Source of the DNA: Alphaproteobacteria bacterium
GTDB taxonomy: Bacteria > Pseudomonadota > Alphaproteobacteria > Sphingomonadales > Kordiimonadaceae
Reading direction: 5' to 3'
DNA: 64,000 nucleotides
Assembly: GCA_021774735.1 (NCBI GenBank)
Contig: JAJFIS010000021.1
Span: 124,001 to 188,000, forward strand
Position 1 is the first letter of the stretch. Each line of letters begins with the position of its first letter. The notes beneath the pieces are model-generated. The model was not told the DNA's origin, ran no database searches, and saw only the letters and a list, made by a program, of their open reading frames with translations. The translations under genes were made by a program, and so were the position numbers. Shown here piece after piece: positions 9,928-24,151 of this stretch.

Positions 9928-11091
9928 ATGGCTTTTAAATCTATTGTAGATTTTGGCGATTTAACCGGTAAGACTGCGCTTGTGCGGGTTGACCTGAACG
10001 TGCCAATGACGGACGGCAAGGTTAGTGATGACACACGTTTGCAAGCGGTTAAGCCGACTGTGGACGCGCTCACAGCTAAAGGCGCTCGTGTTGTCCTACT
10101 GGCTCATTTTGGCCGCCCTAAAGGCCAGGTGGTGCCTGCAATGTCCCTCAAGCCTGTTGTGCCCGCGCTAGCAGCCGTATTGGGCTGTGCTGTGGGTTTC
10201 GTCGAACTCGGGGATGACCTACCACCAAGCGACGTGGTGGTGATGGAAAATACGCGCTTTGAACCGGGAGAAAGCTCCAATGACATCGAGCTAGCCAAAC
10301 GCTATGCCGCTTACGGCGATATTTATGTCAATGATGCTTTCAGCTGTGCCCACCGCGCCCATGCCTCCACCGAAGCGCTGGCACATTTGCTGCCATCCGC
10401 CGCAGGGGAAACTATGGCCGCTGAACTAGTGGCGCTTGAAAAAGTGCTCGGGGACCCTGTGCGCCCTGTTTGTGCCGTGGTTGGCGGCGCGAAGGTATCC
10501 AGCAAGCTTGCTGTGCTGGAAAATCTAGTCGAAAAGGTTGATCATCTGATTATCGGCGGCGGCATGGCCAATACTTTTTTGGCGGCCAAAGGCTATCATG
10601 TTGGCGCCAGCCTGTGTGAGCACGAGCTCACTGGAACAGCTCTGGCCATTCTTACTAATGCTGAAAAGCATGGCTGCAAAGTTCATTTGCCCAGCGATGT
10701 GGTGGTGGCGAAAGACTTCAGGGCCCATGCAGATAATGAGGTCAAAACCGTCGATAATGTGGCGGAAGATGAAATGATATTGGACGCGGGCCCCAGCAGC
10801 GCTGAGGCTTTAGGCTATATCATTGAAGGCTGCAAGACGCTGGTGTGGAACGGCCCTATGGGCGCGTTTGAGATGGAACCTTTTGATATGGCAACTGTGG
10901 CGCTTGCTCGCACAGCGGCGAAGGCGACTATTGAGGGCACATTGTTGTCTGTGGCTGGCGGCGGTGATACCGTGGCAGCCCTTGCCCACGCGGGTGTTCG
11001 CGGTGACTTCACCCATATTTCCACCGCAGGGGGCGCTTTCCTAGAATGGATGGAAGGGCGCACTTTGCCCGGCGTCGCGGCACTGGGGTAG
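9928..11091 (+). CDS. pgk: Phosphoglycerate kinase
   Basis: The 387-residue enzyme interconverts 1,3-bisphosphoglycerate and 3-phosphoglycerate with ADP/ATP. The N-terminal substrate loop is [10 protein letters not shown], with [10 protein letters not shown] and the FEPGESSND region. The C-terminal nucleotide domain has [10 protein letters not shown] and [11 protein letters not shown]. It starts 12 bases after gap and is almost surely co-transcribed. It is the last gene before a REP-like repeat and the convergent terminator of the next gene. Confidence 0.97.
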
Positions 11092-11116
11092 GGGCACATA
11101 GGGAAAGTTCTTTTCT

Positions 11117-11299
11117 GTCACTCTGAACTTGTTTCAGAGTCTATGTTAGTCGTTGCACTCAATTGATTGATAGCCAGCTTAAGTGTTTTCCGTGGATGCT
11201 GCTTGTGGAGCAGACGTTTACGTCAAACAAGTTCAGCATGACGCTTATATAAAATGATAGATTCCTTTCCCTCAGGCTTCGCCTTCGCTGGGAATGACC
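11117..11299. repeat. REP-like palindromic intergenic element
   Basis: A non-coding block after pgk begins GTCACTCTGAACTTGTTTC and ends GGGAATGAC, so its tips are GTCA/TGAC. The left part folds as ACTCTGA(11120-11126)/TCAGAGT(11134-11140). CTGAACTTGTTT at 11123-11134 is repeated in inverse orientation as AAACAAGTTCAG at 11225-11236, a perfect 12-base arm. The right part has the GCTTCGCCTTCGC-type core. This resembles the dispersed CTGAACTTGTTTCAG repeats found between genes in many proteobacteria. Copy number elsewhere in the genome cannot be seen here. Confidence 0.7.
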
Positions 11300-11340
11300 A
11301 TTGAGGAAGTGCTGGAAATAATAAAAAATGTATAGCCAAA

Positions 11341-11372
11341 CAAAAACGCCGGGGTGTTGGCGGCCCCGGCGT
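11341..11372 (-). terminator. Rho-independent terminator of the Lys-rich exported protein gene
   Basis: ACGCCGGGG at 11346-11354 pairs perfectly with CCCCGGCGT at 11364-11372. On the minus strand the stem is followed by TTTTTG, the U-tract of an intrinsic terminator. It lies 29 bases beyond the stop codon of the gene at 11401-11814. Confidence 0.88.
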
Positions 11373-11400
11373 CCTAAAATTTTATAAAGTGCAGTATGAT

Positions 11401-11814
11401 TTAGTCGTCATGCTTCTCTTTATGCTCTTTATGCTTTTCTTTATATTCTTTGCGCTTCTCTTTATGCTTCATATGGCGTTCTTTTAGCTTTGCCATACAT
11501 TCGCCTTTCGCATCGCCTTCCATAGCTTCACATTTGGCTTTTTTCTTAGCCATTTTCTCTTTCATCTTGGCTTTATACGCGGCCTTCTTTTCAGCCATTT
11601 TCTTCTTGCAAGCGGCCATATCTTCGCCTTCCATGCCTTCGCAGTGCATTTTGTGCTTTTTCATCTTGTGCTTTTTCTTGTCTTTATCATCATCGAATAA
11701 GACAGGTGAAGCCAACGCAGCAGAAACTGAAATGGTTGTGTCTGCCTGCACCGCGCTAAAACCAAGTGTAGCGGCAGCGGCAATTGATAAGATTAGTGTT
11801 TTCCTGAGTAACAT
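11401..11814 (-). CDS. Exported Lys/His/Glu-rich protein with paired cysteine motifs
   Basis: No family is recognised. The 137-residue product starts with a Sec signal peptide (basic MLLRK, hydrophobic core, cleavage plausible after AVQA). The mature protein is extremely rich in Lys, Glu, His and Met. Two near-repeats stand out: CEGMEGEDMAAC and CEAMEGDAKGEC, each with cysteines 11 residues apart, separated by a Lys/Ala/Met helix. The C-terminus is a tract of KEKHKEHKEKHDD type. The pattern could bind metal or polyanions or form a periplasmic helical hairpin locked by disulfides, but this is inference. The gene is monocistronic, with its own terminator. Confidence 0.8.
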   Translation of the reverse strand: MLLRKTLILSIAAAATLGFSAVQADTTISVSAALASPVLFDDDKDKKKHKMKKHKMHCEGMEGEDMAACKKKMAEKKAAYKAKMKEKMAKKKAKCEAMEGDAKGECMAKLKERHMKHKEKRKEYKEKHKEHKEKHDD

Positions 11815-12200
11815 AGATATCTCCCATTAAAATTATTGTTAGACCCTAGCCTGCGCTTAGTTTGTCGAATAAAAAGGGAAATGTAAATATGTAACAATAT
11901 GTAACTTTAGCTTAATATTTTGGCAGAATTTTAGGGATGTTTGTAAGAGATTGATTTGTTACCGCTTTTATAGATTTTACTTTTAGTAGAGGTTTAAATA
12001 ATAATAATATTAGTGCCTTAATTGTCGTATAAATTTAGTTTTTAGGTCGAATTTAGGCTTAGAATTCTATAATAAGTGTTTTTTATAAAATATTTCCACC
12101 CATATTTTACCATACTAAGGGCAGCCAAATATATCGACCGCTTGCGCATTGGCAAAGCGCGGGGCATGGTGAAATAGATAAATTGCTTGAGGATAAATAG
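11815..12200. other. AT-rich intergenic region, divergent promoters
   Basis: These 386 bases separate two divergent genes and hold no convincing open frame. The sequence is strongly AT-rich, with long A/T runs between 11880 and 12110. A short GC-rich patch (CGCATTGGCAAAGCGCG) lies near 12145-12161. The region presumably carries the promoters of both flanking genes. No specific operator could be defined. Confidence 0.5.
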
Positions 12201-12743
12201 ATGTCAGACTTCTATACTGAAATAAGCGATAAAATTACCGCTTTTATCAAAGAGCAGTCGATATTTTTTGTTGCGACTGCGGCAGAATCTAGCCGGATTA
12301 ATCTAAGCCCAAAGGGCACGGATAGCTTTAGGGTGTTTGGTCCAAATTTGGTGGGCTATATGGATTTTACGGGTAGCGGCAATGAAACCAGCGCCCATAT
12401 CAAGCATGATGGCCGCGTGACGGTAATGTTAACCAGCTTTACCCGTAATCCATTGATCCTTCGGCTCTATGGTCAGGGTCGAGTGGCACGTCCTGGTTCT
12501 GCCGAATTCGAAGAGTATATTGGTGCCTTCCCTGAAGGAAAAGGCGTCCGACAAATTATCTTTATTGACGTAGAAACTGTGCAGACGAGCTGCGGATACG
12601 GCGTACCAGAGATGGATTTGGTCAAGGAACGCCCTACCATGCGGCGCTGGGCAGAAAAGAAAGGCGCAGACGCTATTTTGGAATATCAGCAGACAAAAAA
12701 TGCTGTCAGCATTGACGGCCTAGACAGTGGATTGAACGACTGA
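12201..12743 (+). CDS. Pyridoxamine 5'-phosphate oxidase-like flavin-binding protein
   Basis: The 180-residue protein looks like the PNPOx-like split-barrel family: ATAAESSRINLSPKG near the start, then GYMDFTGSGNETSAHI and VTVMLTSFTRNPLILRLYG. Members bind FMN or F420 and act as oxidoreductases, but many are uncharacterised. It lacks evidence for true PdxH function. The next gene begins two bases after its stop, so the two are co-transcribed. Confidence 0.8.
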   Translation: MSDFYTEISDKITAFIKEQSIFFVATAAESSRINLSPKGTDSFRVFGPNLVGYMDFTGSGNETSAHIKHDGRVTVMLTSFTRNPLILRLYGQGRVARPGSAEFEEYIGAFPEGKGVRQIIFIDVETVQTSCGYGVPEMDLVKERPTMRRWAEKKGADAILEYQQTKNAVSIDGLDSGLND

Positions 12744-13291: not shown

Positions 13292-14656
13292 TTAGTAAGC
13301 AAATTCTTCAAACACTCGGCTGACATCGCCGCCCCACGGGCCGTTGAATTGCTTTAGCAATCTGTCCGCCGGGGTTTCACCTGTTTCAATGGTTTCATGC
13401 AGCGTATCTAAGAAGCCCTGTTCCGTTTCACCATTCGTGGAAAGCCGTGCCCGCGCTTTTAGGCCGGCGTCAGCAATGGTTAGAACCTCTCGCCCAATAT
13501 CCCGCAGGCTGCGGTCCCGGTGTTGGGTGATGAGGCCGAGCTTGGGCGCATCGTCGCGCATTTTCGATAGCTCTTCGATGTTCCAATCTTTAACCAAGTC
13601 CCACGCGGCTGCTTGGGAATCATTGTCATAAAGCAGGCCCGCCCAAAGCGCAGGCAGGGCGCAAAGTCGCGACCACGGCCCGCCATCAGCCCCGCGCATT
13701 TCCATATATGTCTTCACCCGCACTTCGGGGAACAGCGTCGTCATATGGTCGTTGAAATCGTCCATGGTTGGCAGTTCGCCGGGCAGGGCAGGCAGACGGC
13801 CATTCATAAAGTCGCGGAAACTTTGGCCCGATGTATCGATATACTCATTATTACGCTTAATAAAATACATGGGAACATCCAGCAGGTGATCCACCCAGCG
13901 CTCGAACCCCATACCGTCTTCAAAAACAAAGGGCAGCATGCCGCAGCGGTCTGGGTCCGTATCGGTCCAAACATGGCTGCGCAAACTCTGAAAACCATTG
14001 GGGCGGCCTTCTTTAAAGGGCGAATTGGCAAATAGGGCGGTGGCTAAAGGTTGCAGGGCGAGACCAATACGAAATTTTTTCACCATGTCGGCTTCACTAG
14101 CAAAGTCCAAATTAACTTGAACCGTGCAGGTGCGCAGCATCATATCCAGCCCCAAAGTGCCAACCTTGGGCATATAGGCACGCATGATGTCATAGCGTGA
14201 TTTGGGCATAATGGGCACTTCGTCACGTTTCAGCGTGGGGTGATAACCAAGGCCCAAGAAGCCAATGTCCAGTTCTTCGCCGATCGCTTTGGCTTGGCGC
14301 AAATGGCTTGATGTTTCGTCGCAGGCTTGGTGGATGGTCTCCAGCGGGGCGCCAGAAAGTTCAAACTGACCGCCGGGCTCAAGGGATATCGATGCGCCAT
14401 TTTGGGCTTCAGCGATGACATTTTCACCCTCATAAACTGGTGACCAGCCATAACGCTCATAGGCATTTAAAACGTCGCGTATTCCCGGCATTCCATTTTC
14501 CCCAAAATAGGAAAGCGGCGCGCCTGTAGAGCGGTGGAAAACAAATTTTTCATGCTCAGAGCCAATGCGCCAGTCATCTCGGTCCGGCGTGATCCCATTT
14601 TCGAGGTACCGGATAAGCTGTTCGCGTGATTCGACTAAAACTGGACCGTCAGACAT
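13292..14656 (-). CDS. gshA: Glutamate-cysteine ligase (plant/alphaproteobacterial type)
   Basis: The 454-residue protein matches the GCS2-like ligases of alphaproteobacteria and plants, which make gamma-glutamylcysteine from Glu, Cys and ATP, the first step of glutathione synthesis. Visible motifs include DDWRIGSEHEKF, ISLEPGGQFELSG, TCTVQVNLDF and TYMEMRGADGG. The length is normal. It is followed on the same strand, 130 bases upstream in transcription order, by a cysteine dioxygenase-like gene, so two cysteine-consuming enzymes lie together. Confidence 0.93.
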   Translation of the reverse strand: MSDGPVLVESREQLIRYLENGITPDRDDWRIGSEHEKFVFHRSTGAPLSYFGENGMPGIRDVLNAYERYGWSPVYEGENVIAEAQNGASISLEPGGQFELSGAPLETIHQACDETSSHLRQAKAIGEELDIGFLGLGYHPTLKRDEVPIMPKSRYDIMRAYMPKVGTLGLDMMLRTCTVQVNLDFASEADMVKKFRIGLALQPLATALFANSPFKEGRPNGFQSLRSHVWTDTDPDRCGMLPFVFEDGMGFERWVDHLLDVPMYFIKRNNEYIDTSGQSFRDFMNGRLPALPGELPTMDDFNDHMTTLFPEVRVKTYMEMRGADGGPWSRLCALPALWAGLLYDNDSQAAAWDLVKDWNIEELSKMRDDAPKLGLITQHRDRSLRDIGREVLTIADAGLKARARLSTNGETEQGFLDTLHETIETGETPADRLLKQFNGPWGGDVSRVFEEFAY

Positions 14657-14786: not shown

Positions 14787-15377
14787 TTAATGCTGGTAGG
14801 GCTCGGGACCATGCACGATATTGATCGCATATTGGTCTTGGCTTAAATCCATCCCATAAATATGGATGCTGACAGCGGCATCACCCGTGTGGTTATGCAG
14901 AGCGTGAATGCAGTCAGGGTCAGCGGACACGGCAACCACGGTGCCCGGCTTTGCGACGGTGATACAAGTGGGGGAAAGGGTTGTTGAGCCATCATCGTCG
15001 TGATTTTTGCAATAGCTGATATTGCTGATGCTGCCTGATTTTACCCCAACAACACCCCATGCGGCGTGCCCGTGAATGGGCGTGCAGGCACCCGGTGCCC
15101 AGATCAGGCAAAGAATGGTAAAGCGGCCTTCGGTATCGATATAAACAATACGGCGTTCATAGGCGCAATTGGGAACTTTGCTGGCAGTGCTTATGTGCTT
15201 AATTTCAGCTAGATGAGCTGATAAAAGAGCGCCAACATCATCCGGCGAGCTTTGCGCATCATGGTCAAGTTGATCTGAAATGGCTTCGCCTAGGTCCGAA
15301 AAGTCGGCCAAATCCAAAGCTGTTTGGTCATTAGATGAAACCTGATGCGGCGGTTGAACTGGTGTATGAATACCCAC
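14787..15377 (-). CDS. Cysteine dioxygenase-like thiol dioxygenase
   Basis: The 196-residue cupin has the iron-binding three-histidine arrangement of thiol dioxygenases: HGH in CTPIHGHAAWGVVGV and a later His in ALHNHTGDAAVSIHIYG. Such enzymes oxidise cysteine to cysteine sulfinate, or 3-mercaptopropionate in related members. Length and motifs fit, but substrate choice between the two cannot be settled by eye. It lies upstream of gshA on the same strand. A perfect AT-rich inverted repeat lies 75 bases before its start. Confidence 0.8.
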   Translation of the reverse strand: MGIHTPVQPPHQVSSNDQTALDLADFSDLGEAISDQLDHDAQSSPDDVGALLSAHLAEIKHISTASKVPNCAYERRIVYIDTEGRFTILCLIWAPGACTPIHGHAAWGVVGVKSGSISNISYCKNHDDDGSTTLSPTCITVAKPGTVVAVSADPDCIHALHNHTGDAAVSIHIYGMDLSQDQYAINIVHGPEPYQH

Positions 15378-23042: not shown

Positions 23043-23735
23043 TCAATGCAATTCGACCCACTTGTCTGAAGAATAATCAAAGCATTTAATAATGCACCTA
23101 CCATCACTATGAAATTGTAAGTGTTTATTTTGAGTAGGTATAGCAACAACATCTGGCCAAAAAGCAACGATATTTGTGCCACCTTTTACACGAACACTTG
23201 GGTAAACTATGCCATCACCGCCACCATTTCTTATTTCGAGCGCTAATTGACGGGATTCGGTGTATTCATTAGGATGAAGTTCTGGTGCATTTATATCTTC
23301 AATAGTGTGCATGTTACCTTTAATACTGCCCAGATAAACACGCTGTTGCATATCATCAGGGGAATGCTCTGAGGCTAGTAGATGGTTGTTTAATATATGT
23401 ACTCGTTCAGCTATAGAGGTCTCAAGACTATCAGATGCGTAATAAGCTCCATAGTTGCCGTTAGTAAATCGATCGCCCTCTTTTTTGAAGTGCGTGAAGG
23501 CAGCCATTACAATTGATGCTCCTGGCCCGGTGATGCGCCTTGAAACGGGAACGAGAGATATATCCCCAACCTCTTGCTTGATACGTGGATTAGTTGCCAT
23601 TTCTAGCTCAATGAGAAATTCCCAATCCTCTACAGGCGCTATATCTTCAAATAAATCAATAGGAGGGTAGCATGAAGCAATGGTTCTAAAAGCAGGTGAA
23701 AACTTTGTAATTGACAAGATGTGTTGAATTGTCAC
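23043..23735 (-). CDS. RES-domain toxin
   Basis: The 230-residue protein shows the Arg-Glu-Ser pattern of RES toxins: FRTIAS near the N-terminus, YYASDSLETSIAE in the middle, and GGDGIVYPSVR towards the end. Characterised members cleave NAD+ (NAD+ phosphorylase or glycohydrolase activity) and stop growth. It follows its antitoxin gene by two bases on the same strand, the usual Xre-RES order. The local AT-rich composition and bracketing repeats suggest acquisition. Confidence 0.88.
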   Translation of the reverse strand: MTIQHILSITKFSPAFRTIASCYPPIDLFEDIAPVEDWEFLIELEMATNPRIKQEVGDISLVPVSRRITGPGASIVMAAFTHFKKEGDRFTNGNYGAYYASDSLETSIAERVHILNNHLLASEHSPDDMQQRVYLGSIKGNMHTIEDINAPELHPNEYTESRQLALEIRNGGGDGIVYPSVRVKGGTNIVAFWPDVVAIPTQNKHLQFHSDGRCIIKCFDYSSDKWVELH

Positions 23736-23737
23736 TT

Positions 23738-24151
23738 TTAGCCTCTAACTTGATCTAGATACTGTCGCACATAAGCCAGATCAGTTAGGTCGCCACTCAC
23801 CATACGGTCAATTGGGCTCTGTCCTCCGAATTTGTCATTGGCCTGATTAACCCAGCCATAGAGGTTGTCAGGGTTTTTATAGAGTATTCGGAGTGCCTTA
23901 TGGATACCTATCAAGTAACTGATGCGGCGCATCGTGTCAGTAGGTACATGACCCAAGGCCCCTTTGCGAAGCTTATAGTATTTGCCTTTCTCAATATCAC
24001 CGAGAAGGGACATGCCTTGAGATGGAGATAACTTCCATGCTTCGGCCAAATTAAAGAATGCACGAAAGCCTGCACCCTGGTGTTTTTTACTGCTCAGAAC
24101 ATCGCGAGGGACTTTAATCGCCATTTCAATGTCTTGCGTAGCCGTATTCAT
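23738..24151 (-). CDS. Xre/MbcA/ParS-family antitoxin
   Basis: The 137-residue protein has an N-terminal helix-turn-helix-like part (WKLSPSQGMSLLGDIEKG). The C-terminal toxin-binding domain (DUF2384) reads FGGQSPIDRMVSGDLTDLAYVRQYLDQV. It neutralises the RES toxin encoded directly after it and probably represses its own promoter. A good GGAG lies before the ATG at 24151. The upstream 120 bases are very AT-rich. Confidence 0.88.
   Translation of the reverse strand: MNTATQDIEMAIKVPRDVLSSKKHQGAGFRAFFNLAEAWKLSPSQGMSLLGDIEKGKYYKLRKGALGHVPTDTMRRISYLIGIHKALRILYKNPDNLYGWVNQANDKFGGQSPIDRMVSGDLTDLAYVRQYLDQVRG

Follow-up and report, generated by a model that had tools for sequence, protein, structure and literature searches.

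A Lys-rich exported orphan protein with two C-x10-C motifs at predicted helical turns

In the stretch of 64,000 nucleotides analysed here (the window), positions 11401-11814 of the minus strand encode a protein of 137 amino acids that is plausibly an orphan carrying a recurrent, uncatalogued cysteine-stapled turn, with no close relatives detectable. The reading that we favour, with a confidence falling somewhat short of even, is that of a small Sec-exported, strongly basic helical protein held by disulfide staples, whose Lys-rich surface would bind or shield polyanions of the envelope or buffer charge; the role is our guess. The gene, its flanks and the parts of its product are as follows.

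11401-11814, minus strand: coding sequence of the exported Lys-rich protein with two C-x10-C motifs, 137 aa (ORF, codon usage)
11743-11814, minus strand: probable Sec signal peptide MLLRKTLILSIAAAATLGFSAVQA, residues 1-24, read by eye from the sequence
11608-11643, minus strand: motif 1, CEGMEGEDMAAC, residues 58-69, from the sequence
11497-11532, minus strand: motif 2, CEAMEGDAKGEC, residues 95-106, from the sequence
11638-11694, minus strand: predicted helix 1, residues 41-59 (AlphaFold2)
11527-11625, minus strand: predicted helix 2, residues 64-96 (AlphaFold2)
11410-11514, minus strand: predicted helix 3 with the His/Lys/Glu tail, residues 101-135 (AlphaFold2)
11821-11825, minus strand: GGGAG, Shine-Dalgarno-like, read from the sequence and ending 6 nt before the ATG
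11342-11371, minus strand: intrinsic terminator read from the sequence, with an 8-bp all-GC stem (CGCCGGGG/CCCCGGCG), a 9-nt loop and a TTTTTG tail
9928-11091, plus strand: pgk, on one flank of the gene
12201-12743, plus strand: PNPOx-like gene, on the other flank

The ORF at 11401-11814 is a real gene. The initial annotation had its coordinates right, and the strand is here corrected to minus: the ORF starts with ATG on that strand, while the plus-strand translation of the same span contains 8 stops. Its codon score of 0.039 lies within the range of the other ORFs in the window (n = 14; −0.003 to 0.114). These 14 ORFs, taken as genes, served as the reference for codon bias, and only 2 of 2000 random synonymous recodings fitted that bias equally well, which supports a real gene. 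A plus-strand ORF at 11450-11830 was rejected, being antisense to the gene and having a codon score below 0. The terminator begins 30 nt beyond the stop codon; as the terminator scan allows loops of 3-8 nt, it missed this minus-strand stem with its 9-nt loop, and it lists a plus-strand stem at 11351-11375. As read from the sequence, the gene may be taken as a single-gene transcription unit. It lies between tkt-gap-pgk on one side and, on the other, the PNPOx-like gene, one for a DUF2007 protein and one whose sequence reads as gshA; these neighbours give no hint of function, which was counted against the explanation favoured here.

Several other elements were noted in the surroundings. The upstream side of the gene is a long AT-rich intergenic stretch (11830-12200) with promoter-like matches on both strands, and six such matches were observed in 11091-12300 where 3.1 are expected. 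A direct AATATGTAAC pair is found upstream at 11886-11905. Beside the terminator, inverted arms (11117-11134 and 11225-11242) surround GAACTTGTTT, and CTGAACTTGTTTCAG occurs four times in the genome as an exact copy, against 0 for the reversed control; the GAACTTGTTT/CTGAACTTGTTTCAG element is probably an interspersed intergenic element. Further away, the minus-strand gene at 14787-15377 has a product resembling cysteine dioxygenase (PF05995, 23.9 bits, where the cut-off is 23); close to it, 13292-14656 reads by sequence as a glutamate-cysteine ligase. A RES-domain protein (PF08808) at 23043-24151 on the minus strand adjoins an antitoxin of the Xre/MbcA/ParS type (PF09722), and the two form a RES-Xre toxin-antitoxin pair.

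The protein has exactly four cysteines, at residues 58, 69, 95 and 106, and these make up the two C-x10-C motifs, which lie 37 residues apart and are identical at 6 of 12 positions. All four glycines of the mature part also fall within the motifs. A Lys/Met helix links motif 1 to motif 2, and a His-Lys-Glu tail closes the C-terminus. From residue 41 to 137 the chain is 34% Lys with a pI of 9.53, and its only large hydrophobic residues besides Met (and Ala) are Tyr80, Leu110 and Tyr124. The near-repeats, the linking helix and the tail had all been described in the initial annotation and are present in the sequence, as is, by eye, the signal-peptide-like N-terminus that its proposal of export calls for. 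With spacing and content combined, the internal repeat is clearly above chance, but only moderately so. Residues 26-137 were shuffled 200,000 times, and equal spacing of both Cys pairs arose in 1.8% of the shuffles. With the cysteines held, the similarity of the motif interiors (BLOSUM62) was matched in 0.9% of full and 3.0% of within-motif shuffles; identity, a weaker measure, was matched in 4.0% and 12.1%, respectively.

A structure was predicted with AlphaFold2 from the single sequence with no alignment (mean pLDDT 73.5, pTM 0.50). The model consists of three helices, with blocks at pLDDT 72-89 from residue 41 onward, and both predicted turns, at 60-63 and 97-100, fall within a C-x10-C. The x-M-E-G-[DE] at the predicted breaks looks like a Gly that caps the C-terminus of one helix and an acidic residue that caps the N-terminus of the next, and together with the position of the turns it fits a disulfide closing each turn. 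DsbB is present in the source genome (E 4.6e-32). The best anatomy is thus probably that of two disulfide-stapled helical hairpins, the helices being predicted and the disulfides deduced, although single-sequence AlphaFold2 over-calls helix in Lys/Glu-rich chains, so that a single long helix, or a disordered chain, could stand in place of the hairpins. A disulfide-stapled helical protein had been proposed at the outset, with structure prediction as a check, and the proposal is supported by the predicted helix-turn-helix, by the turns inside the motifs, by DsbB and by the presence of the motif in other exported helical proteins (see below). Foldseek, run against the PDB, returned 35 matches, all of them at E 1 or above. 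Skp, with a Foldseek E of 6.8, was the top row of VIA-align (Z 8.4, rmsd 2.5 over 66 residues, 33-98), a range that is common for helical models.

The search for relatives returned no orthologue. The gene is single-copy in its own genome, and at E ≤ 0.001 none of the 58 other relatives (59 genomes with its own) contained one. When the threshold was relaxed to E ≤ 10, weak matches appeared in 12 of 57 other relatives, the best at 0.009, and no Lys-rich exported protein was found at these loci among the frames below 250 codons with a C-x10-C. No orthologue was confirmed in genome contigs, and none was found in plasmids. The motif pattern matched in 7 of 146 other genomes of relatives, with no exported twin-motif protein among the frames read. 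Gene order gave the same result: pgk was found in 27 of 29 genomes of the family, and in 20 of these 27 no counterpart was found downstream of it when filtering for small Lys/His-rich or signal-like ORFs. When 385 genomes of the class were searched with a unit profile that includes the window repeats, 29 others had a match at E ≤ 1, with 0.024 as the best value, and none of these 29 loci, one per genome, had a relative-like protein with a C-x10-C near the match. Since the source genus is represented by one genome in the set searched, close relatives may simply be unsampled. The statement that no known family comes to mind holds as well: no Pfam family was found at E ≤ 1, nothing in NCBIfam came near its cut-off (the best was Asr, NF033636, with 18 bits and E 0.0038 against a cut-off of 50), and a sequence search of solved structures gave no match. 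In the open-access library searched, and for the terms used, no paper was found on the window protein or on bacterial C-x10-C hairpins.

The motif itself recurs elsewhere. Exported proteins with CDALAGNAKDVC repeats exist, which prompted a search for C-x10-C patterns. The pattern C[DE]x[LM]xG[ND]AKxxC, derived from the query, was searched at the DNA level in 396 genomes of the phylum and matched in 10 (its own and nine others), with 0 matches for the reversed control. The 14 places outside the window correspond to 10 proteins in 9 of the 395 other genomes. All 10 have an export signal (by eye), are rich in lysine, have a helical composition and carry two or three C-x10-C copies; a single motif sufficed for detection, and export, Lys content and further copies were not used for selection. 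The consensus is CDxLxGNAKDVC. Among the 29 units in these proteins, 16 match the search pattern; the 13 units that do not have G at position 6 in 9, N at position 7 in 12, and K at position 9 and D at position 10 in every case. None of the five proteins scanned contains a Pfam or NCBIfam family over its cut-off, and no shared gene was noticed around the ten among the largest flanking frames listed. A tblastn search of plasmid records with one of the proteins matched Cupriavidus (4) and Variovorax (2), which places the set, by sequence comparison, probably in the Burkholderiales. The copy in Variovorax paradoxus (CP063167.1) is annotated as a hypothetical protein. Further C-x10-C units were seen in Cupriavidus metallidurans CH34 and Variovorax paradoxus, in a hypothetical protein or unannotated. 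The refuting condition given in the initial annotation, a lack of homologues with conserved cysteines, gave a divided result: no orthologue was found, but exported proteins of another group keep the cysteine motif well conserved.

The window protein resembles the Burkholderiales proteins in being exported (by eye), Lys-rich and predicted-helical with at least two C-x10-C motifs, and the motifs share [DE] at position 2, [LM] at 4, G at 6 and [ND] at 7. However, the Burkholderiales proteins are Ala/Asp-rich, with a strict K at position 9 and mostly D at position 10, whereas the window protein is Lys/Met/His-rich and its repeat 1 lacks the K at position 9. A Tyr upstream of the motif in the Burkholderiales proteins is also missing there in the window protein. 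An HMM of the family units gave 7.2 bits to repeat 2 and −7.3 bits to repeat 1; a score as high as that of the better repeat was reached by four full and 23 Cys-fixed shuffles, out of 2000 of each kind. Against a profile of the units outside the pattern, 20,000 full and 20,000 local shuffles were scored; 227 and 96 of them, respectively, equalled repeat 2, and 4845 and 2656 equalled repeat 1. The profile of all units, which is biased by the selecting pattern, was equalled for repeat 2 by 19 and 12 of 20,000 shuffles. Seven of 236 other C-x10-C stretches scored at least as high as repeat 2, five of them in the family's own Cupriavidus/Variovorax loci. The motif interior thus fits the Burkholderiales profile weakly in repeat 2 and not at all in repeat 1, and although the window protein works like the Burkholderiales proteins, the sequence tests do not establish that it is homologous to them.

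A second approach, suggested in the initial annotation, was to search for homologues by CE.MEG. As a DNA pattern it gave 43 stretches in genome contigs, one per locus, and all were translated. One of them, in Fluviicola, resembles the design:

L119:6856-7119, minus strand: Fluviicola lipoprotein with CDSMEGDERREC, 87 aa, the only CE.MEG match resembling the design

The other stretches, among them a Streptomyces frame that recurs and Saccharibacteria proteins resembling FtsH, seem by eye to be chance matches, so the suggested search yielded this one protein. It has a lipoprotein-type N-terminus and is acidic, whereas the window protein is basic, and it carries one motif and two other cysteines (C33, C35, C46 and C84 in all, with 33 and 84 outside the motif). 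Its predicted structure has blocks at pLDDT 89-96 after residue 20 and helices at 21-36, 40-64 and 68-86, and the first break lies inside the CDSMEGDERREC motif. As in the window protein, a helical turn is predicted inside the C-x10-C motif, so that the turn reading holds in a second, unrelated-looking protein. It is possible, although we hold it with some doubt, that C-[DE]-x-[LM]-x-G-[DNE]-x4-C describes a disulfide-stapled helical turn that no catalogue lists, that recurs time and again among small exported proteins of two phyla, Pseudomonadota and Bacteroidota, and that had more than one origin. The bacterial envelope would then have its counterpart to the CHCH hairpin of mitochondria, and the window protein would be a Lys/Met/His-rich instance that arose independently.

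The window protein was also compared with known systems. The disulfide bridges of CHCH proteins run between motifs. The twin CX9C (CHCH) proteins of mitochondria are described as small helical hairpins with two disulfides and one CX9C pair on each helix, some members having CX10C (PMC12114033). By that description each CHCH helix bears a CX9C pair (PMC12114033), whereas each C-x10-C of the window protein straddles a predicted turn. No CX9C occurs in the window protein. Asr (NF033636), like the window protein, is exported, small, basic and repetitive, although the match is 18 bits against a cut-off of 50, and Asr is not known to have such cysteine motifs. The LTxxQ motif of Spy/CpxP is absent from the window protein, which has no Pfam match. 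PsiF repeat proteins, considered as a lead, were rejected: 0 Pfam families were found at E ≤ 1, and no Cys pair has 16-19 residues between.

If the favoured reading is right, each C-x10-C would close in the oxidising periplasm as a disulfide across a tight helix-turn-helix. In the turn, Cys, two residues, Met, Glu and Gly would form the helix end, Asp/Glu would start the next helix, and five residues would lead to the second Cys. The two staples would let three charged helices (predicted net charges +3, +8 and +6) fold back on one another, and they would matter because the helices are almost without a hydrophobic core. The basic charge and the missing core lead us to favour a surface role: the exposed Lys-rich face would most likely bind or shield envelope polyanions or buffer charge, in a stress or housekeeping capacity broadly like that of other small basic periplasmic proteins, all of which is a guess.

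The binding of metal or polyanions suggested in the initial annotation finds its support in the composition, which also allows other roles. The protein could be a periplasmic sponge for soft metals (Cu(I)/Ag(I)/Zn), functionally SilE-like, with Met, His and possibly reduced Cys as ligands. Of the 112 residues from 26 to 137, 10 are Met and 8 are His, and they form clusters: HxM at 49 and 54, MxxH at 51, HxxH at 54, 114 and 128 and HxxxH at 131, and candidate ligands are H49, M51, H54, M56, H57, C58, M61 and the H114-H135 tail. SilE binds Ag+ through His/Met motifs (PMC5008109) and is, like the window protein, small, exported and His/Met-containing, but both of the motifs given there, MxxHx5HxxM and HxxMx3HxxM, are absent from the window protein. 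The net positive charge is unfavourable to cation binding, none of the neighbours was recognised as a metal gene, and by eye the other C-x10-C proteins are Ala/Lys/Asp-rich without comparable His/Met content, which makes such a sponge unlikely. It is equally improbable in our estimate that the protein is a lineage-specific orphan of low complexity, unfolded and of little function, whose repeats stem from a local duplication, of recent date, in a tract of Lys codons that is A/G-rich on the coding strand. The lack of an orthologue, the four copies of a 31-nt unit (at least 66%) in the DNA of the tail and the only moderate excess of motif similarity over shuffles would all agree with it. However, drift would not confine Cys and Gly to two motifs, the gene has kept its signal peptide, terminator, codon usage and Shine-Dalgarno-like site intact, and the motif recurs in other exported proteins.

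There is also a slighter chance, small enough that we do not lean on it, that the window protein is a true distant member of the Burkholderiales family, either too diverged to be recognised or gained by transfer. It shares the plan of export and repeats with that family, and repeat 2 fits the profile of the units outside the pattern better than most shuffles do. Against this stand the misfit of repeat 1 (−7.3 bits), a distance of 37 residues between the motifs where the first two units are 56 apart in the Burkholderiales proteins, and the failure to find an intermediate among 385 genomes of the class.

Taken alone, the window protein is one more orphan among small exported proteins. If the stapled turn is indeed recurrent, annotators could use the short motif to pick out small exported helical proteins of one class, now called 'hypothetical', and these proteins, as simple substrates, would allow tests of how oxidation in the periplasm brings about the folding of chains without a hydrophobic core.
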